From Tannerella serpentiformis (GTDB taxonomy: Bacteria; Bacteroidota; Bacteroidia; Bacteroidales; Tannerellaceae): a stretch of DNA of 64,000 nucleotides. The stretch lies in assembly GCF_003033925.1 (NCBI RefSeq), contig NZ_CP028365.1, forward strand, positions 124,001 through 188,000, written 5' to 3'. The notes under the pieces were generated by a model, which was not told where the DNA came from, did no database searches, and worked only from the letters and a program-made list of their open reading frames with translations. Of the stretch, positions 1,685 through 58,400 are shown in pieces. Numbering within the stretch: the first letter of the stretch is position 1; the number at the start of each line of letters is the position of its first letter. The translations under genes were made by a program, and so were the position numbers.

Positions 1685-1870
1685 TGGCAGGCGGCCTGCC
1701 AAAGTGGTCCAACACTCCGGTGACGTTGGCAGGCCGCCTGCCAGGACTATCGGACACTTTGGTGATGCTGGCAGGCCGCCTGCCAGGGCTATCGAACACT
1801 CAGGTGATGTTGGCAGGCCGCCTGCCAGAGTCATCGAACACTCCAGCGATGTTGGCAGGCCGCCTGCCGG
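1685..1870. repeat. Five-copy, 42-bp array centred on a TGGCAGGCNGCCTGCCA palindrome
   Basis: The palindrome starts at 1685, 1727, 1769, 1811 and 1853, an exact 42-bp period. The intervening 25 bp are partly conserved (for example atcgaacactc and ggtgatgt). The first copy has a G where the others have C in the centre; both remain palindromic. The array lies just after the integrase stop. It is not a CRISPR: the linkers resemble each other and the conserved part is a hairpin. Confidence 0.9.
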
Positions 1871-2053
1871 AGAATTTCTCACGATTAAGCCCGCCTGTTT
1901 CCAGCGTTCTCCCTCCTTATCCTCAGTGTTCCATCAATCCATGGCGCAGCGTGTCCTTTCGCCGACTTTTGCTGTCAAAAGAAACAGCAAGCGCGGGCAG
2001 TCGCACTGGCTTGCTTCAATCCAATTACGCAACCTCATACTTATCAAAGCAGC

Positions 2054-2323
2054 ATGCAAATCATCCTGTTAGATGGCAAGGCTTGGGAGCGACATCGCTC
2101 CGCCTTTGCCGACTTCATCCACCGCATCGAGCGGCTCATTGGCAATCCGCCCGAGGTCGACGAATGGCTCGACAACGACGCCGTATGCCGCCGGCTGAGC
2201 ATCAGCCCTCGCACCCTGCAAACCTTGAGAGATACGGGCAAAATCCCCTTCTCCATGGTCGGGCATAAGTGTTATTACAAAGCCGGCGACATCGCTGATT
2301 TACTGAATTCAAACGCTGAATGA
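2054..2323 (+). CDS. Excisionase-like helix-turn-helix protein (HTH_17 type)
   Basis: An 89-residue protein. Its C-terminal half (WLDNDAVCRRLSISPRTLQTLRDTGKIPFSMVGHKCYYKAGDIADLL) is a MerR/excisionase-like winged helix: a division into HTH, a wing with G-K-x-Y, and a final helix. In Bacteroidota these small proteins sit next to integrases and act as excision factors or regulators. The N-terminal 40 residues are a helical extension. It is followed after 3 nt by a second protein of the same fold, so the two are probably co-transcribed. The division of labour between the two is unknown. Confidence 0.75.
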   Translation: MQIILLDGKAWERHRSAFADFIHRIERLIGNPPEVDEWLDNDAVCRRLSISPRTLQTLRDTGKIPFSMVGHKCYYKAGDIADLLNSNAE

Positions 2324-2326
2324 ACG

Positions 2327-2635
2327 ATGGCAGAGCATGCAATCATTACGGAAGAAAGCCCTCAAATGCAACTGTTTGTCCAGCTCATGGCGGGCGTATT
2401 GAAGATGCTGGAGCGCTATTGCGCCTCGGCCCGCCCCACGCTCGCAGGGGAGGTTTATCTCACTGGCGAGGAGGTTTGCGAGCGGCTCAAGCTCAGCGCC
2501 CGCACGCTGCAGGAGTACCGCGGCCGCGGCCTCTTGGCCTTCTACAAAATCGGTGGCAAGATCCTCTACAAACAGAGCGACCTGCAAACGATGCTCGACC
2601 GACATTATAATCCCATTCAAAAGCCTTCGGTATGA
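2327..2635 (+). CDS. Second excisionase-like helix-turn-helix protein
   Basis: A 102-residue protein with the same architecture as its upstream neighbour: an N-terminal helical region and an HTH_17 domain (YLTGEEVCERLKLSARTLQEYRGRG, then a wing LLAFYKIGGKILYKQSDLQ). Tandem HTH genes of this type followed by a DUF3408 gene are typical of Bacteroidota mobilizable and conjugative elements. The start is 3 nt after the upstream stop and its end overlaps the next gene by 4 nt, which points to translational coupling across all three genes. Confidence 0.75.
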   Translation: MAEHAIITEESPQMQLFVQLMAGVLKMLERYCASARPTLAGEVYLTGEEVCERLKLSARTLQEYRGRGLLAFYKIGGKILYKQSDLQTMLDRHYNPIQKPSV

Positions 2636-3279
2636 CGATAGAAGAACTACGGCGCGCCAGATTAGCCGCTAAACAGGAAGCGATGGGCGGCATGGGCGGC
2701 AATGCCGAAACCAAGCGCAAGGCGGAAGTGGAGGCGGAGGCCAAGGCGGAAGAATCGCTATTCTTTGATCCGCCCGCAAAGCCGACGGAAGAACAGCGGC
2801 AAGCCGTCTTGACCGCCAAGCTGAAAGAGATGGGCGACATGGGCGTCAAACGGCGCACGGTGGAAGAGTCGCCTTTCTTCGATCCGCCGGTAGAGGTAGC
2901 GCCGACAAAAAGCGCGTTCGATCCTTCTCCGGCGGAGGCGGAGGAGGCTAAGGAGGCAGTCATTCATCCTCAGACGGAGGCGGATAAGCCCAAGGAGGAA
3001 GTCATAGCGGCCCCACCACCCGCTCCGACTCCTCGAAGAGTCGGCAAGCTCAAGAACCACAAGGAGGATTTGGCGGCGTTCCGAGAGACGTACCTCCAAC
3101 CCGCGCGCATCAGCCACCGCAGGGCGGTCTACGTCTCTGACGAGACCCAGCAGAGATTAGACTTTGTCGTCCGCCGGATCGGCCTGCGAGGCGCCAGCAT
3201 CTCGGGCTATGTCGAGCGCGTGCTTCGCGAGCATCTCGACGGGTACAAGGACTGCATCGAAGTCTGGCGAAAGCTCTGA
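2632..3279 (+). CDS. DUF3408 protein of a conjugative/mobilizable element
   Basis: A 215-residue protein. The first 140 residues are low-complexity and rich in Ala, Glu and Lys with two repeats of an SxFFDPPxxxxPT motif. The C-terminal 70 residues (HRRAVYVSDETQQRLDFVVRRIGL ... ISGYVERVLREHLDGY) match the DUF3408 domain found beside mobilization genes of Bacteroidota conjugative transposons, probably a ribbon-helix-helix-like DNA-binding fold (inference). It overlaps the preceding HTH gene by 4 nt. No complete relaxase follows; the transfer module appears truncated after this gene. Confidence 0.75.
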   Translation: MTIEELRRARLAAKQEAMGGMGGNAETKRKAEVEAEAKAEESLFFDPPAKPTEEQRQAVLTAKLKEMGDMGVKRRTVEESPFFDPPVEVAPTKSAFDPSPAEAEEAKEAVIHPQTEADKPKEEVIAAPPPAPTPRRVGKLKNHKEDLAAFRETYLQPARISHRRAVYVSDETQQRLDFVVRRIGLRGASISGYVERVLREHLDGYKDCIEVWRKL

Positions 3280-3382
3280 ACACATGCACACTTTGCGTTC
3301 CGTGTCCATCCGAACACCTGCATGTGTTGAGTGCAAGCATTCAGGCTACGGACAGGGCCCGTTCCGGGGCCGGGCAAGGTGT

Positions 3383-3420
3383 GTTTTTGTGACACAAAAA
3401 CCGTTTTGTGCTACAAAACG
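3383..3420. repeat. Two adjacent perfect hairpins
   Basis: Two perfect inverted repeats abut: 3383-3401 (gtttttgtg, 1-nt loop, cacaaaaac) and 3402-3420 (cgttttgt, 3-nt loop, acaaaacg). They lie 100 nt after the DUF3408 gene, where an oriT or an operator of the mobile element could be expected. The sites share a TTTTGT/ACAAAA core. Confidence 0.7.
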
Positions 3421-3620
3421 CCTTGCGCCCGGAGCGGTCTCTCCGCGGCGGTTCGGCTCCAAAGTCGCCATCTGATCTTATACGACCCCCCCCCTATGAA
3501 TCGACCCAAGCTCCCCGTGCGCCCCCTCGAAGTGGAACGTCCGCACCAAAGCCGACCCGAAGCTAAAGAGGGCGATGAAAGGGAAGCGGAGGGGGCGTTG
3601 CCGTTCGTCCATACGAAAAT

Positions 3621-3660: not shown

Positions 3661-3707
3661 ATAACAGTTTGCTTGCATGCTGCTTTTACACAGCGATCCT
3701 TTCGAGG

Positions 3708-5799: not shown

Positions 5800-5809
5800 A
5801 ATCGAGTTC

Positions 5810-15635: not shown

Positions 15636-16467
15636 ATCGGAGAAACTGTATTTGAATTGCTTGGATCCTTTCTCCTTTTCTTTCCTTGATGCGAAAAAAG
15701 GCGGCTCCTCTTTCTCCTTTTCTTTCCTTGATGAAAGAAAAGGAGGCAAAAGAAAATCAAGGCATCAGGGATGCCTGCCAAGTTAGCCGGGTACTTCAAA
15801 GGCGACAAAGAGGCTCGTGCTAAGTTGCATGTATCCGGCCAAAATTCGTTGGCGGCCGAAGCCGCCTTGATCTTCTTTTGCTTTCTTTTCTTCTATCAAG
15901 AGAAGAAAAGAAGGGACTCTTTTTGCGAGAAAGTAGAGACCTCTGCCAAGTTGCGGGAGACAATCATGCGCTCGAAAAAAGCACCCGGCAAACTGCTCCG
16001 CTCTCGATTTCAGGCTTTTTCTTGATGTGAGAAATGGAGGATCCTCTTTCTCCTTTTCTTTCCTTGATGAAAGAAAAGGAGGCAAAAGAAAATCAAGGCA
16101 TCAGGGATGCCTGCCAAATTGTCCGGGTACTTCAAACGTAACAAAGGGATGCCTGCCAAGTTGGCCGGGTACTTCAAACGTAACAAAGAGGCTCGTGCCA
16201 AGTTGCATGTATCCGGCCAAACTTCGCCGGCGGCCGAAGCCGCCTTGATCTTCTTTTGCCTTCTTTTCTTCTATCAAGAGAAGAAAAGAAGGGACCACTT
16301 ATGCGAGAAAGAAGGGATGCCTGCCAAGTTGGCCGGGTACTTCAAACGAAACAAATTGACCTCTGCCAAGTTGCGGAAGACAATCATGCGCTCGAAAAAA
16401 GTACCCGGCAAACTGCTCGGCTCTCGACTTGGGGCATTTTTCGTTCTTGCCGTTTCGCTATACCTTT
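15636..16467. repeat. Mosaic 42-bp repeat region between two permease genes
   Basis: Two long copies (about 15711-16022 and 16047-16442) of a block containing: a REP-like hairpin (ccttttctttc...gaaagaaaagg at 15716-15743 and 16052-16079), units of the form gggatgcctgccaagttggc followed by cgggtac, and an inverted version of the hairpin near 15871 and 16241. Unit starts at 16104, 16146, 16188, 16314 and 16356 are 42-bp multiples; 15669 and 15711 are also 42 apart. Short in-frame extensions of the permease genes through it are artefacts. Confidence 0.85.
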
Positions 16468-19648: not shown

Positions 19649-20010
19649 TTTTCGATCTCGAGAAAGGGTATTGCAAAAGTGCGGTATGATTCTTTTCTCC
19701 CCTATGGGAATCATGCCAAACGGCAACACACATTTTCGATTTCGAAAAGGTCTCCTGTAAAACGATTTGCCTCTTGCTCGGCTTGAAAATATTAAACCGC
19801 ATGAATCTTATTTAGTTGCTCGGCTGAAGCAATTAAGCCGCAAGAATGTTTCTTAGTTGCTTCATTAGAGCAATTAAGCCGTGAAAATGTCTCTTAGTTG
19901 CTCGGCTGAAGCAATTAAGCTGTGAAAATGTCTCTTAGTTGCTCGGCTGAAGCAATTAAGCCGCAAAAATGTCTCTTAATTGCTCTGATAGAGCAACTAA
20001 AGAAGATTTA
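19649..20010. repeat. 41-bp array (ttagttgct...agcaattaa units) plus an 84-bp-spaced motif
   Basis: ttttcgat occurs at 19649 and 19733 (84 bp apart). Units with ttagttgctcggctgaagcaattaa start at 19812, 19853, 19894, 19935 and 19976, an exact 41-bp period. The unit core is an inverted repeat (TTAGTTGCT/AGCAATTAA). The same unit, reverse-complemented, forms the array at 49622-49745. Confidence 0.85.
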
Positions 20011-20082: not shown

Positions 20083-20300
20083 TCTCGCCAAATGGCAACA
20101 TGCGCTCTCTGCTCCAAAAAAGTATCTCGCCAAACGGCGTCTCTCTTTCCGTGGCGCATAAAGGGCGTATGCCATTCGGCGCCACTATCTATCGATTGCT
20201 TTATTCTCTCTTGCATCTTCGTTTCTATCCTTTCGCAATCCGTGTGGAGATTATGCCATTCGGCGCCACTATCTATCGATTGCTTTCTTCTCTCTTGTTT
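20083..20300. repeat. 42-bp array with GCCAnnYGGC palindromes
   Basis: gccaaatggc, gccaaacggc, gccattcggc, a degenerate copy and gccattcggc again begin at 20087, 20129, 20171, 20213 and 20255, all 42 bp apart. A 33-bp stretch starting atgccattcggcgccac is identical at 20169 and 20253. Confidence 0.8.
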
Positions 20301-23053: not shown

Positions 23054-23060
23054 AGAGGTA

Positions 23061-23396
23061 TTGTTGAACTAAAAATGAAAATCTACAAACTGAAAAAGGA
23101 TCATGTAAAACGGAACAACCCATTCAGACCAATCCGTGGAACTGTTGTTGAACTAAAAATGAAAATCTACAAACGGAAAAAGGATCATGTAAAACGGCAC
23201 AACCAATTCAGACCAAACCGTGGAACTATTATTGAACTCAAAATGAAAATCTACGAGCGGAAAAAGGATCATGTAAATCAGCACAAATGATTCAGACCGA
23301 ACCGTGGAACTATTGTTACACTCAAAATGAAAATCTACGAACGGAAAAAGGATCATGTAAAGCAGCACAACCAATTCAGACCGAAAAAATAAATAC
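23061..23396. repeat. Four-copy, 84-bp array
   Basis: Units starting ttgttgaactaaaaatg or close variants begin at 23061, 23145, 23229 and 23313. Each contains gaaaatctac, gaaaaaggatcatgtaaa and attcagaccaa/g. The period is 84 bp (2 x 42). The array begins 8 nt upstream of the permease start and so lies in or before its leader. Confidence 0.9.
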
Positions 23397-24736: not shown

Positions 24737-24771
24737 GATCAAAACCTTAATTCAAAAACCTAAAACAGAAA

Positions 24772-25023
24772 ATCGTCTGTGGAGAAGCGCAAAACGAAAA
24801 TCCAACCGCCCAAAACAGTCAAGCACTTTTTCGGGATAATCATTTTCAAGCGCCCGACGCTGTTCATTTTTCATTTTCACCGATTAGCTCCCAAAAAATC
24901 GTCTGTGGAAAAGCGCAAAACAAAATTCCAACCGTCTAAAAGGGTCAAGCACTTTTTCGGGATAATCATTTTCAAGTGCCCGACGCTGTTCATTTTTCGT
25001 TTTCACAGATTAGCTCTCCCTGA
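24772..25023. repeat. Two-copy, 126-bp repeat overlapping the 3' end of the TolC-like gene
   Basis: atcgtctgtgg starts at 24772 and 24898, 126 bp apart (3 x 42). The second copy continues past the stop codon of the outer-membrane factor gene (24990), so the repeat unit includes its final codons. One copy therefore looks like a duplicate of the gene end. Confidence 0.85.
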
Positions 25024-28740: not shown

Positions 28741-28778
28741 CTAAAAACGTGTGTTCGACGTCAGAGAATGCTGTTTTT

Positions 28779-29090
28779 GAGACGCCGTCATGTCGCATGA
28801 CGAGACCAAAATGGCCGTTGAGACGCCGTCGTGTCGCATGACGAGACCAAAATGGCCATTGAGACGCCGTCATGTCGCATGACGAGACCAAAATGGCCAT
28901 TGAGACGCCGTCATGTCGCATGACGAGACCAAAATGGCCGTTGAGACGCCGTCATGTCGCATGACGAGACCAAAATGGCCATTGAGGCGCCGTCGTGTCG
29001 CATGACGAGACCAAAATGGCCGTTGAGACGCCGTCATGTCGCATGACGAGACCAAAATGGCCGTTGAGACGCCATCATGTCGCATGACGC
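28779..29090. repeat. Eight-copy, 41-bp array with GTCATG-TCG-CATGAC hairpins
   Basis: Units starting gag[a/g]cgcc begin at 28779, 28820, 28861, 28902, 28943, 28984, 29025 and 29066, an exact 41-bp period; the last copy is partial. Each holds a 6-bp stem with a 3-nt loop. It lies between two convergent genes. Confidence 0.92.
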
Positions 29091-32641: not shown

Positions 32642-32865
32642 AAACGTAAGTCGTGTGTATAGAATCTTCGAGGGACTTTTTGTCACCCTCACTTGTCATT
32701 TGAGGGCGGCAAAAGACGTGCAATTTCCTGTGGAAAGCGCATGGATAAACGGTTTTTGAGTCTTTTGTAGAGACTTTGGGCAGGGGAAATGCGAGCTTCA
32801 AGGCCTCATCATGGAGGTTATCTCGCCGAACACTTCGACAGCCTCTCGCAGGTTTGCATGGCCTT

Positions 32866-33060
32866 GAAATACATTATTTCTGGCCGCCGCAGATTTTACA
32901 ATGCCCGAAATACATTATTTCTGGCCGCCGCAGATTTGCATGGCCTCGAAATACATTATTTCCGGCCGCCGCAGATTTGCATGGCCTCGAAATACACTAT
33001 TTCTGGTCGCCGCAGAATTTACAACGCTCGAAATACATTATTTCCGGCCGCTGCAGATGA
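32866..33060. repeat. Five-copy, 41-bp array with GAAATA-CAT-TATTTC hairpins
   Basis: The hairpin starts at 32866, 32907, 32948, 32989 and 33030, all 41 bp apart; linkers contain tggccgccgcagatt. It lies between two divergent genes and ends about 50 nt before the start at 33110. Confidence 0.92.
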
Positions 33061-37655: not shown

Positions 37656-39458
37656 TCAAGCATGACGATACGGGATATTCCCGTCTTCGTCGATCAGCAG
37701 GATGGTGAGATGACCGTCGGGGAGCAGGGGGGCGCAGTGGCGGTGGCAGAGGCGAAGCAGGGCGGGGAAGAACCGATCGCGGTCGTTGTCGGTGAGGGCG
37801 TGCCACAGCTCGCGGGCCAACGTGATGCCCGTGATAGCTTCGCTGGCCGACGGCGAGCAGCCCGACTCGGCAGCGACCGTTTGCAGAAATGCCTTATTCA
37901 TCACCACCTTCTTGCTGTGCGTATCCAACGAGCCCTCGGCCAGCTTCACCGCCTTGCCGACCATGATGCCCATCGTCACGTTCGGGATACCAAGTTCCGC
38001 GGCGATCTTCAGCGTCTCGCCGATGAAGTTGCCGAAGTGGACGAACGCTTGCGCGGGCAGGTCGGGGTATTCGGCCTTGACGAAACGCTCGCTGCGAGCG
38101 CCGGAATTGATGACCAAGCGCTCAGGACTGAGGGCACGGCAGACCTCCACTTCGCGGCGGATGGAGCGGACGAAGGCGTCTGACGAGAAAGGCATGACGA
38201 TGCCTGACGTACCGACGATGGAGATACCGTCCACGATGCCGAGCTTCGGGTTAAACGTCTGCCGAGCAATCTTCTCCCCATCGGGCACGGCGATCGTCAC
38301 GTCCAAGGGGGCATCGCAGAGCGCCGTCAGCTCGCGGGTGATCATCTCGCGCGGCGTGCGATTGATGGCCGGGCCACCGATCTCGAGGCCAAGGCCGGGC
38401 AACGTCACACGACCCACGCCCTCACCTTGTAGGAAGCGGATCCCCTCCCCTTCCTCGTCACGGAGCGCCACCGTTGCGCAGATCTTGCAGCCGTTCGTCA
38501 CGTCCGGATCGTCGCCCGCATCCTTGATCACTGCGGCCGTTGCCTCTCGCTCGCCGAGGTGCGTCTCGGCTATGGGTAGCGTCATCACCTCGCCGTCGGG
38601 CAGGGCATACGACACCTCGCTTTGCTCCTCGCCCGTGAGCAACGCCATCAGCGCCGCCTTAGCCGCAGCCGTGGCACACGATCCGGTGGTGTAGCCGCTG
38701 CGCAGCGGGAAGAAGCCGGGCACGAAGCGCTCGATCTGTTTGCGAAAGCCGTGGCGCCCCGTGACGGTGACAAACCCCGCGGGCATCGGCGGACGGCGGA
38801 CAGCGTACACGGCAATGCCCAGCTTATGCGCCGCCTCGACCTTATCGATAAAGCCTCCCGACTCGCCACTCTCCTTCGTCAGTATGGCCTGCGGACGCAC
38901 GCGCTCAAGCAGCGCCTCGTCGCCGCCGGGTTCGTAATAGACGATCCGCTCACGCGGGAAACCCTGCCGCTCGGCCAACGCGAGCGATGTGGGCAGGTCG
39001 AGGATGCGGAAGATGCACGCGTCGTGCGCCTGCCAATACGCCCGCAACCGGCCGATGGTCTGCACGCCGGTCAGGGCCAGCAGTCGGGTGACGCCGTCCG
39101 CCTCCATCCGACGGATGGCATCGTCGTAATCATCGCACCAAATGATGTCCGCACTGCGCGGCGGATAGACGCGCTCGTAACGTACCACCGGCAGCGAGAG
39201 CCGTTCGGCCACGACGGCCACCGTTCGATGCAGCACCTCGGCAAAGGGATGGGCGGCATCGACCAGCAGCCGGATCTCCTTCTCCCGACAGAACGCCTCC
39301 ATCGCCTCCTCATCCATCGCACCCGTGAGGCGGGTGCCATGATGACAATCCACCTGCTGGTGCGCGTCGCGCGTCGAATAGAAATACGGACTGCCCGCCT
39401 CGTCGGCCGTCTTCACGGCGGCGCGCCCCTCGGTCGTCCCCCCAAGGATCAGGATCAT
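37656..39458 (-). CDS. cbiJD: Bifunctional precorrin-6A reductase / cobalt-precorrin-5B C1-methyltransferase (CbiJ-CbiD fusion)
   Basis: 600 residues. Residues 1-245 are CbiJ/CobK-like (ILILGGTTEGRA at the nucleotide-binding start, VDAAHPFAEVLHR, LTKESGESGG), which reduces the corrin ring with NAD(P)H. Residues 250-600 are CbiD: the hallmark RSGYTTGSCATAAAKAA, GISIVGTSGIVMPFS and HFGNFIGETLK. CbiD methylates C1 in the anaerobic cobalamin pathway. The start overlaps the stop of cbiGF by 4 nt (ATGA). Last gene of the operon, cytoplasmic. Confidence 0.9.
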   Translation of the reverse strand: MILILGGTTEGRAAVKTADEAGSPYFYSTRDAHQQVDCHHGTRLTGAMDEEAMEAFCREKEIRLLVDAAHPFAEVLHRTVAVVAERLSLPVVRYERVYPPRSADIIWCDDYDDAIRRMEADGVTRLLALTGVQTIGRLRAYWQAHDACIFRILDLPTSLALAERQGFPRERIVYYEPGGDEALLERVRPQAILTKESGESGGFIDKVEAAHKLGIAVYAVRRPPMPAGFVTVTGRHGFRKQIERFVPGFFPLRSGYTTGSCATAAAKAALMALLTGEEQSEVSYALPDGEVMTLPIAETHLGEREATAAVIKDAGDDPDVTNGCKICATVALRDEEGEGIRFLQGEGVGRVTLPGLGLEIGGPAINRTPREMITRELTALCDAPLDVTIAVPDGEKIARQTFNPKLGIVDGISIVGTSGIVMPFSSDAFVRSIRREVEVCRALSPERLVINSGARSERFVKAEYPDLPAQAFVHFGNFIGETLKIAAELGIPNVTMGIMVGKAVKLAEGSLDTHSKKVVMNKAFLQTVAAESGCSPSASEAITGITLARELWHALTDNDRDRFFPALLRLCHRHCAPLLPDGHLTILLIDEDGNIPYRHA

Positions 39459-41398
39459 GGCCGGAAGAGGTGCTTAAAGTCCGACGCGTAGAGGTGCGAC
39501 AGCCCCTGCCGGTTGTCGATCGCCTCGCCGACGACGAGCATCGTGGTCAGCGTAAGGTGATTCTCCTTGACGATCTGTGCCAGGTCTTTGAGTTGCCCGC
39601 GATAGATGCGCTCATCGCGCCACGTCAATTTATAACAAGCCGCCACGGGTGTCTCGGGCGGATAAGCCTGAAGCAGCTCGGCCTGCACGTCGTCCACGAT
39701 GGCGGCGCTGAGGTAGATACACATCGTGCTCTGCGAGCGGGCCAGGAGGTGCAATTTCTCACGCTCCGGCATCGGCGTGCGCCCCTCGCCGCGGGTGAGG
39801 ATGATGGTCTGCACGCGCTCAGGGATGGTGAATTGCGAGCGGAGTGCGGCGGCTGCGGCCTGGAAGGAGGAGATGCCGGGCGTGATGTGGTAACGCATGC
39901 CGTAACGGTCGAAGAAGGCCATCTGCTCCTGGATGGCGCCGTAGATGCAGGGGTCGCCGGTGTGGAGGCGGACGATGAAGAGGCCACGGTCGTAGAAGGC
40001 TTTCATCGTCTCAAACTGCTCCTCGAGCGTCATACCGGCCGAGCTACGCACCGTGGCGCCGGGCTTGGCGTACTCCGTCAGTTCGCGGGGCACGAGACTG
40101 CCGGCGTAGAGGATCAGGTCGGCCGTCTCGAGCAGGCGTTTGCCGCGTACGGAGACGAGCTCTGGGTCGCCCGGCCCAGCGCCGACGATCTCGATGAAGC
40201 CACCACGCTGCGCATCGGCGTCGAGGGCCACAGCCAAGGTGAAGTCGCTCGAAGCGCTCAACACGCCCTTCTGCTTCTCCATGACGAGTGGCCCGAAGCC
40301 GGAAGCCCGTTGCGCGGTGCTCTCGGATACGCCCCAAACGCCCGTCGTGTCGAACACCTTCTGCGAGGGGTTGGGCACGGTGATGTCGGCCAATTCGTCT
40401 GCCCGATAAACGTGCTTTTCAGCCTCCCAAGCCTGCGCCAGCGCGTGGAAGAGCGGCTCGTCTTTCTTCAGCTCGATGGTGGCGACGGAGCGGATGGCGA
40501 GCGGCGAGAGTCGGTGCGCCTCCATGACGGCGGCCATGTGTTCGGCCACGCCCTCGGGCGCACTGTCGCGGCGGCAACCGATGCCGACGTGCAGCACGCG
40601 CGGCCGGTAATAGAGGATGGGCACGTCGGCGGTGTAGATAAAGGGCGTGACGGCGATGATGAGCCGAAACGCCTCGGGGCGGATGTTCTCAAAGCGGTAG
40701 AAGACGCTGACGTGCTCGGGCAGGGTGCGCTCCAGATAGTCCGTGCCGCGATCCTTCACATCGAGCAGCAGGGCGGTGGGTTGGTTGCCGACGAAGAGGG
40801 AGATCATATTATTCATCTCTGCATGCGACATAACCGGCGTATTGCTGCGTTGCCTGCGACATTCGGGATCGGTCATGTACTTCTTGTACACTCCCTCCCC
40901 CTTAGTCTGGGCGCCTTGCACTCCATCCGGTTCTGCACGCATGCAGCCCGTTGTTATTTCCGTGCGCCAGTCGAAACGTCGGGCCAGGGTGTCGAGTGCC
41001 CAGAGGCCGGTGTTGTCGCTCTGTGTGGTGACGACGGCCTCGCCGCCGGTGATGGCGGCCACGCGCCGTGCCCAGTCGTTGGCCCCACCGATGTGGCCCG
41101 ACAGGACGGAGATGACAAAGCGCCCGGTGCTGTCGACACAGAGGATGGCCGGGTCGGTGTACTTATCCTTAATAAAGGGGGCGATGCTGCGGATGCAGAT
41201 GCCCATCGCGCCGATAAAGACGAAGAGATCGTACTCCCGGAAGTGCGCGGCCATGAATTGCGCATACGAGGGGAAGGTCTGGCACCCCTCGAGGGAGTGG
41301 GTGGTGAACACTGGCGCATCCCCCAGCTCGTGACTGATGAGGCGCGCCGTCGGAAGTCCACCTTCCGACACTAAGATGATGGCGATGTTTTCTTTCAT
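39455..41398 (-). CDS. cbiGF: Bifunctional cobalt-precorrin-5A hydrolase / precorrin-4 C11-methyltransferase (CbiG-CbiF fusion)
   Basis: 647 residues. Residues 1-380 are CbiG (SVLSGHIGGANDWARR, then the C-terminal CbiG domain with VLHVGIGCRRDS), which opens the delta-lactone ring. Residues 395-647 are CbiF (EIVGAGPGDPELVSVRGKRLL, LHTGDPCIYGAIQEQM), which methylates C11. Residues about 147-195 (CMRAEPDGVQGAQTKG ... SNTPVMSHAEM) interrupt the normal junction between the N-terminal and middle parts of CbiG and are encoded by a dispersed repeat that is also found at 20541-20653. The frame is kept, so a protein can be made; whether the enlarged loop is tolerated is open. Confidence 0.88.
   Translation of the reverse strand: MKENIAIILVSEGGLPTARLISHELGDAPVFTTHSLEGCQTFPSYAQFMAAHFREYDLFVFIGAMGICIRSIAPFIKDKYTDPAILCVDSTGRFVISVLSGHIGGANDWARRVAAITGGEAVVTTQSDNTGLWALDTLARRFDWRTEITTGCMRAEPDGVQGAQTKGEGVYKKYMTDPECRRQRSNTPVMSHAEMNNMISLFVGNQPTALLLDVKDRGTDYLERTLPEHVSVFYRFENIRPEAFRLIIAVTPFIYTADVPILYYRPRVLHVGIGCRRDSAPEGVAEHMAAVMEAHRLSPLAIRSVATIELKKDEPLFHALAQAWEAEKHVYRADELADITVPNPSQKVFDTTGVWGVSESTAQRASGFGPLVMEKQKGVLSASSDFTLAVALDADAQRGGFIEIVGAGPGDPELVSVRGKRLLETADLILYAGSLVPRELTEYAKPGATVRSSAGMTLEEQFETMKAFYDRGLFIVRLHTGDPCIYGAIQEQMAFFDRYGMRYHITPGISSFQAAAAALRSQFTIPERVQTIILTRGEGRTPMPEREKLHLLARSQSTMCIYLSAAIVDDVQAELLQAYPPETPVAACYKLTWRDERIYRGQLKDLAQIVKENHLTLTTMLVVGEAIDNRQGLSHLYASDFKHLFRP
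40813..40960 (-). repeat. Dispersed repeat inserted in frame inside cbiG
   Basis: About 148 bp sharing ordered blocks (gcaaggcg, ggagggagtgtac, gaagtacatgaccga, cgaatgtcg, ggcaacgc) with 20541-20653. Ends carry a short inverted repeat (ctgcatgcg). It adds about 49 codons without a stop. Exact ends need an alignment to uninterrupted cbiG genes. Confidence 0.65.
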
Positions 41399-41430
41399 TG
41401 AATGATGGTGTAATTAGAGGGTGGAATCAT

Positions 41431-41562
41431 TTATAATGACTCAAGAAACCTAATGGCTTCCTTGGCATCGCGGCAAGAGGTGAACTCGCCTCTGTTATGT
41501 TGCTCCCTCGAACGTCTGATTCTTTCTTCTGCTTCAATAGATAGGGCGATATCTTCTTTCAT
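41431..41562 (-). CDS. Small antitoxin-like protein (43 residues)
   Basis: ATG at 41562, TAA at 41431-41433; MKEDIALSIEAEERIRRS then REQHNRGEFTSCRDAKEAI and RFLESL. The pattern RGE-x-x-S-x-x-x-A-x-x-x-L is common at the C-terminus of type II antitoxins. No toxin gene lies beside it. It sits inside the cobalamin operon between the array and cbiGF, 32 nt upstream of cbiGF. It could be an orphan antitoxin remnant or a spurious frame; no RBS is evident. Confidence 0.45.
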   Translation of the reverse strand: MKEDIALSIEAEERIRRSREQHNRGEFTSCRDAKEAIRFLESL

Positions 41563-41611
41563 ATGATGATTTCTATGCCATGAGAACAATCAAACCTCTT
41601 GATTTGATTCG

Positions 41612-42085
41612 AAACACGGACGTGTTTTGCTTCGCGCAGTATGCGCGGCCTCAAACGAGCGCTCGATTGACTTCGCGCAGGCCTCTGCCGAGGCCGGGGA
41701 AGTTTTGCTTGGTACCCGGACAAACTTCGCTGCCCCCGCAGGGGCCCTGTTTGGCTTCGTGCAAACTGGATTGACCTAAACAGGCGCCTGTTTGGCGTCG
41801 CGCAGACTGGATTGGCCCAAACAGGCGCCTGTTTGGTGTCGCGCAAACTGGACTGACTTAAACAGGCACCTGTTTGGCGTCGCGCAGACTGGATTGGCCC
41901 AAACAGGCGCCTGTTTGGTGTCGCGCAAACTGGACTGACTTAAACATGCGCCTGTTTGGCGTCGCGCAAACCGGATTGGCCTAAACAGGCGCCTGTTTGG
42001 CGTCGCGCAGACTGGATTGACCTAAACAGGCGCCTGTTTGGCTCCGCACAAACTGGAGTAACCTAAACAGGGGCCCTGTTTGGCT
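41612..42085. repeat. Long 41-bp palindromic array inside the cobalamin operon
   Basis: Palindrome starts at 41612, 41653, (41694, degenerate), 41737, 41778, 41819, 41860, 41901, 41942, 41983, 42024 and 42065: 41-bp steps, with one 43-bp interval. Most carry aaacaggcgcctgttt, but earlier units carry other palindromes (aaacacg-ga-cgtgttt, cgagcgctcg, aggggccct). Linkers share ggc[g/t]tcgcgcaaactggattg. It separates cbiET from cbiGF and touches the cbiET stop codon. Confidence 0.92.
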
Positions 42086-43294
42086 TCAGCGCAAAGTGCA
42101 GGCCGCCTTCATCACGTCGATCGCATTGTTCGCGTCGACGGTCAGGCGGACGCACTCCGTGATGCGACGGCCGATGGCGGCGAGTCCGTCGGTAAATAGC
42201 TGCCGACTCTCCTCGCTGACGGAGTTGAAGACGATCACGCCGCCGGGGCGCATCACACCGTCGATCTTACGCAGCATGTCCGCCAGTCGCCCACCGTGGC
42301 CGCCGATAAAGACGGCGTCGGGAGCGGGCAAGTCGGTCGTGTCGGCCTCCATAAAGTCGCCCATCACCGGCGTGATGCCCGGCGTGCCGAACCGTCGGCA
42401 GTTGGCGGCGAGGATCTCCCGACAGCCGGGGCGGATCTCGAAGGCCGTGACGCGGAGGTGTGGGAATTGCAGCCGCGCCTCGACGGACACCGAGCCGGTG
42501 CAGAAGCCGACGTCCCACAGCGACGTGCGGTTGTGCAGGTCGAGCATGCTGAGCGAGAGCAGGCGCACGGGCCGCTTGGTGATCATCTTCACGCGGCCGT
42601 CGAGCAGGTGGAACTCGCTCTCGGGGATACCGAACGGGCGTGGCCGCCGGCGGATGCGTTCCAAGATCAGGTTGTTCGGGTGCGTGAACGTGGCCGCGGC
42701 GGCTTCGGAGAGCGTAAGCGTACGGATGCGCTCGTCCGTCTCGTTGCCGAGGCGCTCACCGGTGTGCATGCGGTAATCGTCGCCGTAGCCGTATTCGATC
42801 ATCCGACGGGCGATCACGGCGGGCGTCTTCTCGCGGTCGGTGAGGATGCCTAGGAGCGGCCGCCGCTCGATCAGCGCCGCGTCGAAGTCGTCCCACGGCC
42901 GGCCGGTGAGCGATACGGGGATCATCTCGTTATACGGCATGCCGAGCCGATGGACAAGCAGTTGCAGCGAGTTGAACGAGGGGCACGTCTCGATCGCGGC
43001 GTCGGGGAAGACGCGGCGAAGCGTGACGGCGTAACCGAAGAAAAGCGGGTCGCCGGAGGCAAAGACGATGATGTCGCGGTGGTCGCGGTACTGCTCGAAG
43101 ACGCGATCCAAGGGCACCGTGATATCGATCCACACGGCGCCCTCGGGGAGCCACCCACCGACGATCTCGCGGTGACGGCGTCCGCCGGAGAAGACGTGTC
43201 CGCGGGCGATGCGTTCGCGCACCGCGGCGGGCAGTTGGACGTCGCGCTCGTCGCTGATACCGACGACGTAGAACGTGCGTCGCGGCTCAGACAT
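42086..43294 (-). CDS. cbiET: Precorrin-6Y C5,15-methyltransferase, decarboxylating (CbiE-CbiT fusion)
   Basis: 402 residues. Residues 1-200 are CbiE (VVGISDE, IIVFASGDPLFFGYAVTLRR), a tetrapyrrole methylase. Residues 215-402 are CbiT (TKRPVRLLSLSMLDL, then SAM motif LWDVGFCTGSVSVEA, DAVFIGGHGGRL). Together they methylate C5 and C15 and decarboxylate the C12 side chain, as in CobL. The start overlaps cbiHC by 8 nt. The stop codon lies at the edge of the 41-bp array. Confidence 0.92.
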   Translation of the reverse strand: MSEPRRTFYVVGISDERDVQLPAAVRERIARGHVFSGGRRHREIVGGWLPEGAVWIDITVPLDRVFEQYRDHRDIIVFASGDPLFFGYAVTLRRVFPDAAIETCPSFNSLQLLVHRLGMPYNEMIPVSLTGRPWDDFDAALIERRPLLGILTDREKTPAVIARRMIEYGYGDDYRMHTGERLGNETDERIRTLTLSEAAAATFTHPNNLILERIRRRPRPFGIPESEFHLLDGRVKMITKRPVRLLSLSMLDLHNRTSLWDVGFCTGSVSVEARLQFPHLRVTAFEIRPGCREILAANCRRFGTPGITPVMGDFMEADTTDLPAPDAVFIGGHGGRLADMLRKIDGVMRPGGVIVFNSVSEESRQLFTDGLAAIGRRITECVRLTVDANNAIDVMKAACTLR

Positions 43295-44696
43295 CGCGTC
43301 CCGGGCGCAGTTGCGCCGCGTCGTTAAAGGTGAGGGCGGAGTTGACGAGCGTCGCGGCGAGGTTGCTGCCGCCCTTGCGTCCCTCGATGATCACCTTGGG
43401 GATGTCCGTGAACGGCTTCACCATCTCCTTGCTCTCGCAGACGTGCACGAAGCCCACGGGTGCCGCCACGATGCCGCTCGGCCGCGCCTTGCCGCGACGG
43501 ATCAAGGTGCACAGCTCCATCAGCGCCGTGGGCGCGTTCCCGAAGGCAAAGAGTGCGTCGGGATGTTCCTCTACGGCCACGCGGATGCCGGCCTGTGCGC
43601 GGGTGATGCCCTTCTCGGCCGCCATCTTCACGGCGCGTTCGTCAGCCAGGTAGCACTTGGCCTCGATGCCCATGCGTTGCAGCGCGCCCTTGCGGATGCC
43701 GGACATCACCATCGTCACGTCAGTCACGATCGTCCGCGTACGCCCCGAGCTGAGTCGCTCGTACATCTCGGCCACGGCGCCCGGATCAGTCCAGAGCAGG
43801 CGCTCCATGTCGAAGTCGGCCGTCGTGTGGATAGCGTGCAGCATCGCCCACTTACGGTCGAGCGGGATGTCGGGATGCTTCAGCTCACGCTCGATGGTAC
43901 GGAAGCTCTCGATCATAATCCCCTGCCCGACGTTGACGCCCTCCTCACGCTCCATCTCGCGGTAGTATCCGCGTGGCGTGACGAAGGTGTTGCCTACGGC
44001 GTACGATTGCGAGTTGCCGATCAGCACGACGGTGAACATGTCCGCCTGCTCGGGGTCAAAGTCGGCCAACGTGGTGACGGTCGTCGTCTCGCCGTCTCGC
44101 CCAGCCTGCCGCACGATTCCCACGGGCGTCTCCGGTGCACGACGTGCCAGGAAGAGTTCCTTCAGGCGATAGAGTTGCCAGTATCGGCTGTCGCTTTTCG
44201 GGTTATACACGGCCGTAATGAAGTCGGCCTCTGCTGCGGCAATGATGCGCCGTTCGATGAGTAGCCACGGCGTCATGAGATCGGAAAGGGAGATGACGCA
44301 GAAGTCGTGTCCCATCGGTGCGCCGAGCAATGCGCCGGCCTTCTGGAAAGCGCTGATGCCGGGCAACACCTCCACCTCTACGTGGCTGCCGCGCTTGTGT
44401 TTCATCTCAAGAATGAGGGAGGCCATGCCGTAAATCCCCGCGTCGCCGGAGCTGATGACGCAGACGGTACGCCCCTCCTCAGCCACACGGAAGGCTTCCT
44501 CGGCGCGGCGTCGCTCCTGCTTCATGCCGCTGTCGATGCGGAGTGCGTCCGCAGGCAAATAAGCCTCGATAAAAGGGAAATAGTAATGATAGCCGACGAC
44601 CGCGTCGCAGTGTCGGAGTGCATCGATGACGGCCGACGTGATGTCGCCTGTCGATCCGGGCCCGATGCCGGCCACAATGATTCTTGCTTGATTCAT
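43287..44696 (-). CDS. cbiHC: Precorrin-3B C17-methyltransferase / cobalt-precorrin-8 methylmutase (CbiH-CbiC fusion)
   Basis: 469 residues. Residues 1-250 are CbiH/CobJ (VAGIGPGSTGDITSAV, VISSGDAGIYGMASLI, VLIGNSQSY), which contracts the ring and methylates C17. Residues 255-469 are CbiC/CobH (IMIESFRTIERELKH, VTMVMSGIRKGALQ, PVGFVHVCESKEMV, GRKGGSNLAATLVNSAL), which moves the C11 methyl to C12. The two steps are not adjacent in the pathway, so the fusion reflects gene clustering rather than channeling. Upstream lies the 36-residue gene, 87 nt away. Confidence 0.92.
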   Translation of the reverse strand: MNQARIIVAGIGPGSTGDITSAVIDALRHCDAVVGYHYYFPFIEAYLPADALRIDSGMKQERRRAEEAFRVAEEGRTVCVISSGDAGIYGMASLILEMKHKRGSHVEVEVLPGISAFQKAGALLGAPMGHDFCVISLSDLMTPWLLIERRIIAAAEADFITAVYNPKSDSRYWQLYRLKELFLARRAPETPVGIVRQAGRDGETTTVTTLADFDPEQADMFTVVLIGNSQSYAVGNTFVTPRGYYREMEREEGVNVGQGIMIESFRTIERELKHPDIPLDRKWAMLHAIHTTADFDMERLLWTDPGAVAEMYERLSSGRTRTIVTDVTMVMSGIRKGALQRMGIEAKCYLADERAVKMAAEKGITRAQAGIRVAVEEHPDALFAFGNAPTALMELCTLIRRGKARPSGIVAAPVGFVHVCESKEMVKPFTDIPKVIIEGRKGGSNLAATLVNSALTFNDAAQLRPGRDV

Positions 44697-48101: not shown

Positions 48102-48449
48102 GCCCCTATCGTCCCTTTTTCCCCTTTAATCTAAACTATTTCCACCTCACAACAAAGAAAAATACTCCCTCAAAATAAGTGCCTCAAAAACACCTCTCAA
48201 AAACATGTTCCAGAAATCTTTTCCTGCCGTTTCGCATACTCCTTTTTCGATTCAAATAGAGGTATAATCGATTCTGCATAACCATTTTCCAGATCAAAAA
48301 AATGGTCATGCCGTTTCGCATAACATTTTTTCGATTCAAATAGAGGGATAATCGATTTTGCATGACCATTTTTTAGATCAAAAAAAGTGTCATACCATTT
48401 CGCATAACCCCAAAATTGATCCTAGGAATAGACCTTTTTGTCCGTCAGG

Positions 48450-48546
48450 GTAGGGGCGTATTGCATACGCCCCACATGTACATAGATTTCTAATCATACG
48501 TTCCTTTTGGGGACATCCTAAGGGGGCGTATGCAATACGCCCCTAC
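48450..48546. repeat. 97-bp element with perfect 24-bp terminal inverted repeats, copy 1
   Basis: Left end gtaggggcgtattgcatacg with four further bases, mirrored exactly at the right end (48523-48546). Each end is itself nearly palindromic (ggggcgtat-tgc-atacgcccc). Identical-length copies follow at 48828-48924 and 49206-49302. Confidence 0.85.
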
Positions 48547-48827
48547 AGAAATATCTGCTATATCGTTTCACATGACTATTTTTTAGATCAAAAAAAGGGT
48601 CGTTCTATTTCGCATAACTATTTATCGATTCAAATAAAAGGTCAATACATTTTGCATAGGTCTCTGTTTGATCAAAAAAAGGGTCGTGCCATTTCGCATA
48701 ACTCTTTCTCGATTCCAATAGAGGTATAATCGATTCTGCATGAACATTTTTCAGATCAAAAAAAGGATCATTCCATTTTGCATAACCCCAAAATTGATCT
48801 TAGGGATAGATCTTTTCGTCCGTCAGG

Positions 48828-48924
48828 GTAGGAGCGTATTGCATACGCTCTACATGTATCTGGATTTCTAATCATACGTTCCTTTTGGGGACATCCTAAG
48901 GGGGCGTATGCAATACGCCCCTAC
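48828..48924. repeat. 97-bp terminal-inverted-repeat element, copy 2
   Basis: Same element; the left end carries two changes (ggagcgtattgcatacgctc) that keep the internal palindrome paired. 378 bp from copy 1. Confidence 0.85.
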
Positions 48925-49205
48925 AGAAATACCTGCTATATCGTTTCGCATGATTATTTTTTAGATCAAAAAGAAAGAGATGAAATTTTTCATGATCATT
49001 TTTCAGATCAAAAAAAGGGTCGTGCCATTTCGCATAACTATTGTTCGATTCAAATAGAGGTGTAATCGATTCTGCATGACAATTTTTCGATTCAAAAAGA
49101 AGGTCATACAATTTCGCATGACCATTTTTCAGATCAAAAAAAGGGTCATACCATTTTGCATAACCTCAAAATTAATCTTAGAAATAGATCTTTTCATCCG
49201 TCAGG

Positions 49206-49302
49206 GTATAGGCGTATTGAATACGCCCCACATGTACCTGGATTTCTGATCATACGTTTCTTTTGAGGATGCATTGAGGGGGCGTATGCAATACGCCCCT
49301 AC
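49206..49302. repeat. 97-bp terminal-inverted-repeat element, copy 3
   Basis: Same element with small changes at the left end (gtataggcgtattgaatacg). 378 bp from copy 2. Confidence 0.85.
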
Positions 49303-49580
49303 AGAAATACCTGCTATGTCGTTTCGCATAACCCTTTTTCGATTCAAATAGAGGGATAATCGATTTTGCATGACCATTTTTCGGATCAAAAAGAAGGTCA
49401 TGTTGTTTCACATGACCCTTTCTCGATTCAAATAAAGGGTCGATACATTTTGCATAGGTCTCTATTTGATCAAAAGGAAGTTCATGCCGTTTTGCATGAA
49501 CTTTGCTTTGATTCGGGCAAGTCTGAATAGGTTTTGCAGGACTATATCTTGGATCGAAAATACTAAATCACATTCATGTT

Positions 49581-49760
49581 ATTTAGTTGCTCTGATGAAG
49601 CAATTAAGAGACATTTTTACAGCTTAATTGCTTCAGTAGAGCAACTAAGAGACATTTTCTCGGCTTAATTGCTTCAGTAGAGCAACTAAGAGACATTTTC
49701 TCGGCTTAATTGCTTCAGTAGAGCAACTAAGCAACATTCCTGCAGCTTAATCGCTTCCGG
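49581..49760. repeat. 41-bp array, reverse-complement relative of the 19.8-kb array
   Basis: gcttaat[t/c]gc starts at 49622, 49663, 49704 and 49745, a 41-bp period. Units (gcttaattgcttcagtagagcaactaag, in parts) are the reverse complement of those at 19812-20010. The array ends about 215 nt before the MMPL start. Confidence 0.88.
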
Positions 49761-56589: not shown

Positions 56590-56738
56590 TTTCGTAGATA
56601 TTTTGTTGTGTGTGTAATACGTGATCTGTGATGCGAAAAACGCAGCCAAACGCTGCGTCGGGGAAGCTAAAAAATGAAAAACGGAAAGCTAAAAACAAGT
56701 CGGGGAAACGGATAAGTGAAAAATCAAAAGCTAAAATC

Positions 56739-56990
56739 AGTAGGACTCACGCGTAAACCACAAAACGAATAGCTAAAAACAGTAGGGCTCACGCGTAAAC
56801 CGTAAAGCGAATAGCCAAAAACAGTAGGGCCCACGCGTAAACCACAAAACGAATAGCTAAAAACAGTAGGACTCACGCGCAAACCACAAAGCGAATAGCC
56901 AAAAACAGTAGGGCACACGCGCAAACCGCAAAGCGAATAGCCAAAAACAGTAGGACTCAAGCGTAAGACGCAAAACGAAAAACGGCCGGG
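56739..56990. repeat. Six-copy, 42-bp array
   Basis: agtagg starts at 56739, 56781, 56823, 56865, 56907 and 56949, all 42 bp apart. Units carry cacgcg[t/c]aaacc and cgaatagc[c/t]aaaaac. It lies between two co-directional minus-strand genes, upstream of the BACON gene. Confidence 0.92.
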
Positions 56991-57055
56991 CACCTGCGGG
57001 GTGAACGCATGCGCACGGCGTTTCTCGCTCTTAGACCATTGTCTCTCGTCTCGTC

Positions 57056-58039
57056 TTACTCTTCCGGAAGGTGGATGTCGGGGCCTCCGTCGCTGCCGCC
57101 CGGTTTGGGTTGTTCGCCGCCCGGTTTGGGCTGCTCGCCGGGGCCGGTGCCGGGCTGCTTGGGGTCCTTCGGATCCTTGGGCGCGTCGGGCTTTTTCGGG
57201 TCCTTGGGGTCTTTCGGATCGGCCGGCTTTTTGGGCTCCTTCGGCTCCTTGGGTCCCTTGGGATGCTTCTCGGCGGCGGATTTCTTCTGGGCCTCACTGA
57301 CGTTGTGGCGCGACTTGTAGCGGAGGGTGACCTGGTTCATCTGTTCGGCCAGGGCCTCGATGGCCGTGCGTTCCTCGTCCTTGGTGGTGGTCAAGTAGTT
57401 GGCTTGGAGCACCTGGCAGGCCACCAGATGGATCTTGTCGATGGCATCTCGGACGTCCCGAATGGACGGCAACTTGCTGCGTTCGATGATTTCGGCGTCG
57501 CTGGCTCCGCCCAGGGTCATGTATTCCGCGTTGACGGTGTGCAGTTGGCTCAGGGTGTCGGTGAGTCCCACGGCTGCCACGTCGGCCGGGGCCTTACCGA
57601 GGTCTTTTTCCAGCCCCAGGATGAGCCCGGATTTGATGTCGCAGCGCTTGTCGCGTGCTCCCAGATAGGGGGCCACGATGATGCTGAGGCGTTCGGCGGC
57701 TTCGATGGTCTCCTTCTTGGGCGCGTACTTCTGCTGGCGGATCATGCCGAAGAGGTGTATCAGCAGGCGGTCGCGCTCCTGATCTTTCTTCTGCTTGGCT
57801 TTGGTAAGGCCCGAAGTGGCGGTGACCTTGTTGATCTCCATCCCGACACCGTTCAGGCGATCCCACTCCTCAGCCATGCCGGCCGGCAGTTTGATCTTCG
57901 TTTGGTCGGCTGCCTTGACGTGCTTGAAAAGCTCTACTTGATAGGGTACATACTCCTCTGCGGAGAATCTCGAGGTGTTGGCTACGATAAAGTTTACTGT
58001 TTTTGGGAGCTCGTAGCTGCTCACTTTTTCTTTCGACAT
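57056..58039 (-). CDS. DUF6261-like protein with a Pro/Lys-rich tail
   Basis: 327 residues. A helical N-terminal domain of about 240 residues (VNFIVANTSRFSAEEYVPYQ ... DKIHLVACQVLQANYL) resembles the DUF6261 family of Bacteroidota (from memory; function unknown). The last 85 residues are a low-complexity Gly/Pro/Lys/Asp repeat (PKEPKEPKKPADPKDPKDPK) with GEQPKPGG. No signal peptide. A TAnnTTTG-like box (CATATTTG, 58066-58073) lies 26 nt before the start. The tail could be an interaction region. Confidence 0.65.
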   Translation of the reverse strand: MSKEKVSSYELPKTVNFIVANTSRFSAEEYVPYQVELFKHVKAADQTKIKLPAGMAEEWDRLNGVGMEINKVTATSGLTKAKQKKDQERDRLLIHLFGMIRQQKYAPKKETIEAAERLSIIVAPYLGARDKRCDIKSGLILGLEKDLGKAPADVAAVGLTDTLSQLHTVNAEYMTLGGASDAEIIERSKLPSIRDVRDAIDKIHLVACQVLQANYLTTTKDEERTAIEALAEQMNQVTLRYKSRHNVSEAQKKSAAEKHPKGPKEPKEPKKPADPKDPKDPKKPDAPKDPKDPKQPGTGPGEQPKPGGEQPKPGGSDGGPDIHLPEE

Positions 58040-58065
58040 AACATTACATGGTCTAGAATTGTGTG

Positions 58066-58073
58066 CAAATATG
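58066..58073 (-). promoter_or_regulatory. Candidate -7 box of the DUF6261-like gene
   Basis: Minus-strand CATATTTG, identical to the box at 6928-6935. A TTTG (58090-58093) lies upstream but at 16 nt, shorter than the usual 19. Confidence 0.35.
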
Positions 58074-58140
58074 GTGAATTTTACTCGAACAAATCTCTCA
58101 TTGTCTGAAGCGCGAAAAAACGTCTCTTTCGGGAAGCCTC

Positions 58141-58400
58141 TCCCACCTCAGACAAGGGGCGATCTGACGGCCCCAAAGGTACAACCATTTCTGACATAGA
58201 GAAGCTCTGCATGCAAAAAACTTTTACGGTCTCTGTCAATAAGAGATTTTAGACCCCCAAAGGTGACACTTTTTCAGACATAGAAAGGCTTCACGCATAG
58301 AAAACCCTTACAGCCTCTGTCAATAAGAGGTTCCGAGCCTTCGAAGGTGACACTGTCTCGGGCGCGAGGAGACTTCACCCCTCGGAGGGAGTCATTGTCT
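58141..58400. repeat. 84-bp array upstream of the DUF6261-like gene
   Basis: [a/g]aaggt starts at 58175, 58259 and 58343, 84 bp apart (2 x 42). Each unit repeats gacatagaaa-type and ctctgtcaataagag blocks. From 58400 to 58661 the sequence holds further scattered partial repeats (tattcaatgt, cattgtctcagacaat) but no regular period and no gene that I can support. Confidence 0.8.

Follow-up and report, generated by a model that had tools for sequence, protein, structure and literature searches.

Many intergenic tandem arrays of Tannerella serpentiformis share a 41/42-bp period and often a half-period dyad geometry across mostly unrelated sequences

Why should intergenic tandem arrays of mostly unrelated sequence repeat at one common length? 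The question is raised by a 64,000-bp stretch of the Tannerella serpentiformis chromosome (RefSeq assembly GCF_003033925.1, contig NZ_CP028365.1), referred to here as the window, which covers bases 124001-188000 of a 3,013,500-bp single-contig genome. A preliminary description of this stretch had listed intergenic arrays with a period of 41/42 bp or multiples of it, had called their units mostly unrelated, and had suggested that a protein or machinery sets the spacing. We analyzed the window together with 60 stretches of 20 kb spread evenly along the genome (1.2 of 3.01 Mb), giving a sample of 1.264 Mb or 42% of the genome. Sampled stretches are cited as Lnnn:position and genomes as Gnnn, where G000 is the genome itself and G014 and G016 are relatives of the same genus; sampled GC content was 56.6% in G000 and 47.9% in G014, for which stretches reading N were left out. 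T. serpentiformis is the present name of Tannerella BU063, whose reported GC content of 55-56% (PMC3925233) agrees with the G000 value, while the G014 value agrees with T. forsythia (47%), to which G014 may belong. Among named records, gnd was most similar to a Tannerella genome and a Tannerellaceae metagenome-assembled genome (78 and 77%). Arrays were called by Tandem Repeats Finder (TRF) with overlapping TRF rows dropped, and genes were called by an in-house codon-usage heuristic, with no published gene finder. The main set of 197 arrays, window included, was taken from TRF with periods of 39-43 bp preferred, and its 4 coding arrays were dropped. A copy limit of 2.2 to 2.8 was applied in the palindrome, segment-sharing, array-end, register, half-unit and half-period tests.

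The analysis confirmed that the period is real and genome-wide. Among the 197 arrays, 81 lie at period 41 and 98 at 42, with 10 at 40, 7 at 43 and 1 at 39; extrapolating from this count in 1.264 Mb, we would expect about 470 arrays in the whole genome, and array blocks occupy 67,106 bp of the sample (5.3%). Outside the window (1.2 Mb), 431 non-redundant arrays included 51 of period 41 and 64 of period 42, as well as multiples at 82 (8), 84 (21), 123 (15), 126 (6) and 168 bp (4), while each single period from 24 to 39 bp accounted for only 0 to 4 arrays. The period histogram of the genome had been set beforehand as a test of the common period and, run on 42% of the genome, shows a sharp peak at 41-42 bp. 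This peak sharpens as copy number rises: the share of intergenic arrays with period 40-43 climbs from 9/50 below 2.2 copies through 22/77 and 26/58 to 35/43 at 4.5-7 copies and 42/46 at 7 copies or above (77/89 at 4.5 or above). A shuffled copy of the 1.264 Mb yielded no TRF row at a score of at least 60, and 80 loci of other taxa (1.34 Mb) held no array of period 40-42 and one of 43. Coding arrays lack the 42-bp peak (3/61 at period 42), and the coding autocorrelation at lag 42 (12.3) has near values at lags 36, 39, 45 and 48 (9.9-10.7). The signal extends to intergenic DNA outside TRF arrays, where 6-mer autocorrelation peaks at lags 42 (39.6 per 10,000; median 4.6), 84 and 21.

We then asked how the units relate to one another in sequence. 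The arrays are not one repeat family: the 197 units fall into 82 sequence clusters, 47 of them single, at a threshold reached in 0 of 3,000 shuffled comparisons, and an alignment check for a single ancestor on the same 42% of the genome found that units do not all align to one. When units of 41/42 bp with at least 2.4 copies are joined through any common segment of score 12, 59 groups remain. The view that units are mostly unrelated stands on the cluster count and is qualified by dispersed shared modules, since significant segments in common were detected for 245 of 15,225 unit pairs (score at least 13; null 0/4,000). For 82 of these 245 pairs the common segment spans at most 26 bp, with a mean identity of 95%, and outside that segment similarity between the two units was undetectable in 68 of the 82 (p above 0.05 in comparison with shuffles). 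In 80 of the 82 pairs the units are equal in length to within 1 bp, a constancy that is partly built in because all units had been chosen at 40-43 bp; independent support for constant length comes from the rarity of other periods among long arrays. The module AAACAGGCGCCTGTTT of the window array at 41746-42095, for example, is also present at L048:7889 and L055:6560, each time with another second half, and a probe from the array at 28777-29089 matched 13 pieces in its own genome (12 besides the array itself) and none in 40 same-genus genomes. The usual way to recognize repeats is by sequence; here length and symmetry are what is shared, so that the class is missed by sequence comparison.

Unit length and register look constrained. 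Adjacent copies in the 41/42 class show 0.051 indels per substitution (95% confidence interval 0.037-0.065, n = 213 arrays), compared with 0.177 (0.126-0.237, n = 54) in other intergenic arrays and 0.134 elsewhere, in other taxa (41 arrays); in G014 we obtained 0.061 (8 arrays) versus 0.340 (18 arrays). Interrupted arrays came back in register, within 1 bp of whole periods, in 8 of 13 cases with 0.9 expected, several of these cases being from the same loci and hence not independent. Three of the other five resumed at 210 or 252 bp, multiples of 42 in arrays to which TRF had assigned a period of 40 or 41, and the remaining two (L061, L062) were out of register. By eye, the window block at 48225-49499 keeps its 42-bp rows though three rows (126 bp) in every nine are an unrelated block of paired repetitive extragenic palindromes (REPs), and L060:11999-12964 holds the 42-bp register through 168-bp blocks. 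At L062:3666-4330, three different 41-bp arrays continue in rows of 41; separately, visual inspection puts the first two arrays' main palindromes on a common axis and that of the third about one helical turn off.

Dyad symmetry is the second property that many unrelated units have in common. Array blocks contain 11.3 dyads per kb, compared with 2.7 for intergenic DNA elsewhere and 1.2 for shuffled sequence, and a main dyad (score at least 6) was present in 54/77 units of period (P) 41 and 37/77 of P = 42, or 91/154 overall, so that about six of ten arrays tested carry a strong palindrome of about 15-16 bp. Stem positions vary at 0.0445 per base versus 0.0858 elsewhere in units, and 24 cells changed on both sides yet still paired, compared with 8.8 double changes of any kind expected. 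At 10-12 bp from the main axis, pairing drops to 0.22-0.39 when the period is 41 and to 0.27-0.46 when it is 42, the expectation being 0.25; farther out, several positions within 13-19 bp recover to 0.5-0.65. Such a rise amounts to a second dyad centered exactly P/2 from the first: beyond the strong palindrome, the unit tends to pair with itself around an axis displaced by precisely half a period (20.5 or 21 bp). The half-period rule was positive in 28 of the 29 groups with a main dyad, drawn from the 59 groups without common segments, with a far-pair excess of 1.89 ± 0.23 pairs; sliding the partner by 1-3 bp gave -0.51 to 0.45. Computed per cluster, the excess was 1.16 ± 0.30 for P = 41 (22 clusters) and 2.00 ± 0.44 for P = 42 (17 clusters). 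Across the 29 groups the two dyad windows are 26.7% identical, and thus the second dyad is not a copy of the first. A/T content also follows the axis: in 41-bp units it is 0.63-0.77 at a distance of 6-7 bp and 0.22-0.31 at 10-11 bp, a wave that is weaker in 42-bp units (0.59-0.75 and 0.33-0.42) and measured on clusters that are not fully independent. An AA/TT spectral peak at P/4 (z = 10), for which mononucleotide shuffles were the only control, is not relied on.

Taken together with the common period, the few indels and the absence of arrays from some orthologous gaps of relatives (described below), the half-period axis rule leads us to a reading that we prefer tentatively, with doubt slightly outweighing conviction: the arrays may be DNA lattices of in-phase dyads, bound by a sequence-tolerant dimeric protein and spread partly as miniature inverted-repeat transposable element (MITE)-like elements. 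Each array would be a double-stranded lattice whose repeating unit spans four helical turns (41 or 42 bp); in many arrays a strong palindrome in the unit would be accompanied by another of unrelated sequence, centered 20.5 or 21.0 bp from it, with unpaired linkers of roughly 5 bp between the two. Dyads two turns apart would face the same side of the helix, dimers of one or a few sequence-tolerant proteins could sit side by side on them, and selection would preserve dyads and phase even as the underlying sequence is replaced. New arrays might form when an old palindrome module becomes linked to fresh flanking DNA and the composite unit is amplified in tandem, some of them spreading inside MITE-like elements with insertion sequence (IS)-type terminal inverted repeats (TIRs). 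Candidate roles of a bound lattice are compaction, insulation or silencing between genes. On the earlier proposal that a protein or machinery sets the spacing, the conserved phase seen in the few indels, the register held across inserts and the half-period dyads supports the idea that helical phase matters. The half-period dyads, the dispersed shared modules and the MITE-like elements around some arrays go beyond what that earlier description contained.

The nearest working model would appear to be SopB on sopC, the layout of which suggests how such an arrangement can work; SopB, according to the title of a 1995 paper by Lynch and Wang, can reportedly silence linked genes. As described in an excerpt of PMC6238139, the parS site of plasmid F (sopC) consists of twelve 43-bp tandem repeats with ten 16-bp inverted repeats and is bound by SopB/ParB-F. 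The likeness lies in tandem repeats of about four turns, each with a 16-bp inverted repeat, and holds only for the 91/154 units with a strong dyad. The sopC system comprises a single site, a single motif and a cognate ParB, whereas Tannerella has 82 clusters, often two dyads per unit, and one ParB_N match.

Several observations weigh against the bound-lattice proposal. The binder is postulated, neither a binding protein nor an enzyme having emerged from the analysis, and a sequence-tolerant dimer that needs dyads would be unusual. The genome holds one ParB_N match and 5 HU-type matches, the latter within the 3-11 found across 8 genus genomes and including no obvious specialist; a cognate ParB family or an HU expansion was accordingly rejected, HU numbers being unrelated to the arrays seen. 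The strong dyad is not universal, with AT-rich 42-bp arrays among those that lack it. The best second dyad anywhere in the unit shows no excess (12% versus 13% in a control keeping the first), so two strong palindromes per unit do not hold as a general rule; only the exact half-period position shows an excess. Concerted evolution can also hold length constant inside one array. Finally, there are strand signals: G-T stem mismatches outnumber A-C in 25 arrays and fall below them in 12 (sign test p = 0.047), and in 71/113 pairs of co-directional arrays from one family both members have the same orientation to genes (naive p = 0.008; pairs not independent).

These strand signals bear on a different possibility, namely that the arrays encode strings of RNA hairpins in untranslated regions or small RNAs, which we regard as very improbable. 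It would fit the palindromes with paired double changes and the raw excess of G-T over A-C on the sense strand (91 versus 56, p = 0.005), which the per-array counts repeat; however, the bias is not significant when events are counted once each (64 versus 48, p = 0.16), and it does not differ significantly from that of non-stem transitions (398 versus 382, Fisher p = 0.27). Greater stability of the sense strand was seen in a fraction of only 0.40 of 119 arrays, RNA does not require exact half-period spacing, and Rfam gave only a tRNA in the window. Placement is likewise unfavorable to RNA hairpins, as 37 arrays lie at divergent junctions. The distribution agrees with the original account of arrays at all three kinds of junction: 119 of the 197 are co-directional, 37 divergent and 20 convergent, with 17 unclassified and 4 coding, and an array is held by 97/455 co-directional, 29/87 divergent and 16/85 convergent gaps.

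The preliminary description had also considered a repeat-generating enzyme that counts turns. This is less supported, because coding tandem duplications show no preference for 42 bp (3/61), and a general 42-bp duplication bias is rejected by its absence in coding DNA. A generator that depends on palindromes is a narrower option, which we consider quite unlikely: replication or repair at a palindrome, through hairpin stalling, template switching or rolling synthesis on a small folded circle, would copy about four turns, so that any intergenic palindrome would give rise to a 41/42-bp array. It would account for unrelated units of one length with one strong palindrome each, for old palindromes joined to new flanks, and for the climb of period sharpness with copy number. 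However, the coding duplications count against this option as well; a self-complementary 42-nt circle predicts pairing of the whole unit, and the dip in pairing at 9-12 bp from the axis disfavors it; array ends, moreover, fall at no fixed phase (Kolmogorov-Smirnov p = 0.23, n = 68). If a generator does set the lattice, it would be a bacterial machine measuring four turns, and, protein or generator, either answer bears on the evolution of intergenic DNA.

To learn how arrays come and go, we turned to relatives. Thirty adjacent gene pairs are kept in G014, five of them with an array in G000; three of these five G014 gaps hold some tandem repeat and two are short, at 75 and 24 bp versus 519 and 615 bp. 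Single comparable gaps measure 104 bp in G016 and 58 bp in G041, versus 873 and 299 bp in G000. Overall, in 4 of 7 comparable array-bearing gaps the relative has only 24-104 bp, shorter gaps having been seen in diverged species only, and these four look like recent gains in the T. serpentiformis lineage or losses in the other. The gap at window 24743-24989 carries arrays of different sequence in the two genomes, of 126 bp in G000 versus 42/21 bp in G014. Arrays in relatives have periods of 41, 42, 63, 82 and 84 bp in G014 and 21, 42, 63 and 126 bp in G016, and small samples of G041, G018 and G023 (144, 46 and 60 kb) gave none at 41/42. It is possible, if on balance doubtful, that the arrays amount to a bacterial chromatin code, in which hundreds of arrays share geometry only, a protein polymer would read dyad and phase rather than sequence, and species of the genus would rebuild the lattice with other sequences and sometimes at another multiple (21 and 63 bp, in G016). 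As separate observations on G016, AGGTACGTACCT dyads at L191:1858-2273 form a 21-bp lattice on which a higher-order period of 63 is superimposed, and neighboring strict dyads in six G016 arrays are spaced 10.5, 21, 42 or 52.5 bp apart.

Some arrays appear to lie inside MITE-like elements with TIRs; most blocks have no recognizable ends. A 20-bp inverted repeat, found by eye, flanks L050:10695-11117 and L061:6473-6811 on both sides, and inverted flank similarity reaches a score of at least 15 in 22/169 blocks against 2.2 expected, though direct similarity also reaches that score in 14 and some of the matches are REP palindromes or neighboring repeats. The 12-mer ACGTGAGTTCGA, with 16 copies in the sample, is directed inward at 9 array flanks and outward at none; it equals the printed start of P. 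gingivalis MITE239. A MITE239-type 15-mer, single in G000, is present across 26 of 393 genomes from this order, making it a widespread kind of end that marks no special link. As for a TIR that might be shared with a resident insertion sequence, the observations are the 12-mer ACGTGAGTTCGA and 15 DDE_Tnp_1 matches in this genome.

A 41-nt minisatellite inside a MITE is in fact already known. In an excerpt of PMC4596501, P. gingivalis MITE464/PgRS carries 41-nt tandem repeats and IS5-like ends, the repeats being unrelated to the 23-nt repeats of BrickBuilt. As far as that excerpt goes, MITE464/MITEPgRS and BrickBuilt resemble the present arrays in being dispersed, in having 41-nt internal repeats (one of them) and perhaps in IS5-family-like TIRs, and in belonging to the same order. 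P. gingivalis has one 41-nt and one 23-nt family of about 10-20 copies each, its unit sequences being compared here by description only, whereas Tannerella has many unrelated families, hundreds of arrays (extrapolated), the half-period rule and mostly blocks without ends. In the portions of the open-access literature consulted, including PMC5771137 on P. gingivalis repeats, neither a period common to unrelated units nor a half-period dyad rule is described.

This precedent, the inverted flanks, the inward-directed 12-mer and the short gaps in relatives would all suit a reading of the arrays as selfish minisatellites, in which a few Porphyromonas-like, MITE-borne 41/42-bp repeats jump and diverge fast, unequal exchange keeps the period and no function is involved. 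We nevertheless judge it unlikely. Such ends are missing from most blocks, and the 15-mer of MITE239 type is both widespread and single here. Many units keep one half while the other is replaced without detectable similarity (68/82), and descent predicts neither an unrelated palindrome at the half period in independent groups nor resumption in register after unrelated inserts.

Two further kinds of repeat invite comparison. CRISPR arrays have a similar regular layout of palindrome and spacer, with a usual unit of about 60-70 bp; this identity is rejected, as all units of one array have the same "spacer" and whole units repeat in the printed arrays. REPs and bacterial interspersed mosaic elements (BIMEs), whose palindromes are tagged GTAG or CGTC according to an excerpt of PMC3733652, are likewise intergenic palindromes that are sometimes clustered. 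Identity with them is also rejected, GTAG standing at the palindrome edge in 0/112 palindromic units and CGTC in 2, no more than chance. GTAG-type elements are nonetheless present beside and inside arrays of this genome. GTAG-tagged REP-like pairs (GTAGGGGCGTATTGCATACGCCCC ... GGGGCGTATGCAATACGCCCCTAC) occupy window positions 48450-48545, 48828-48923 and 49206-49301 as well as L060:12213-12677, the 12-mer GTAGGGGCGTAT occurs 81 times in the sample, and there is one Y1_Tnp match (RAYT-like) at G000:C1:1380004-1380351.

Within the window, TRF and rows laid out by period reproduced most of the arrays in the preliminary description. Those of 42 bp comprise 1685-1868 (4.4 copies; TRF), where the dyad TGGCAGGC(G/C)GCCTGCCA opens each unit; a dimer at 15668-15747 (1.9 copies, 79% identical; TRF); 16103-16205 (2.5 copies; TRF), the unit of which recurs in register at 15767 (336 bp = 8 × 42 upstream) and 16313 (168 bp = 4 × 42 downstream); 48225-49499, where about 30 rows stay in register and higher-order periods of 378 = 9 × 42 and also 84 are seen; and 56657-56979 (6 copies), where the preceding row keeps the first 12 bp and the register, not the remainder. 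The 41-bp arrays called by TRF lie at 28777-29089 (7.6 copies; dyad CGTCATGTCGCATGACG), 32847-33058 (5.2 copies; dyad GAAATACATTATTTC), 41746-42095 (8.5 copies; dyad AAACAGGCGCCTGTTT) and 49599-49757 (3.9 copies), the last being of the same family as the 41-bp array at 19774-19985 (5.1 copies) and L015:1561. Multiples of the period are represented by 84-bp arrays at 23059-23382 (3.9 copies) and 58171-58329 (1.9 copies), both with TRF rows and rows by period, and by a 126-bp array at 24769-25016 (2.0 copies) between an HlyD-like gene and the next gene. At 20171-20296 a decayed 42/84 register without a TRF row has rows 20171 and 20255 98% identical at lag 84. One listed start needed correction: the array placed at 41612 is present but begins at 41746, identity at lag 41 being only 0.37 at 41612, and two entries without a TRF row proved weak, 19649/19733 (identity 0.38, z 2.4) and 20087 by 42 (0.43, z 3.3).

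Beside the 41/42 class, further tandem repeats form a group of their own with units near 22, 44, 66 or 88 bp (CGGTAGTTATGCGCC and GGAACGGTATTAAATACCCCTC are examples); they are located at L014:19296, L026:11099, L009:17856, L066:4954 and other positions. Intergenic repeats based on 7 bp also occur, with 6-mer autocorrelation outside TRF arrays peaking at lags 28, 35, 49, 56, 70, 77 and 91 and with 12 period-7 arrays reaching a score of 60. Among the genes of the window, 37656-44696 is a run of cobalamin genes with fused domains (CbiJ-CbiD, CbiG + methylase, methylase + CbiC), and the array at 41746-42095 lies inside it.

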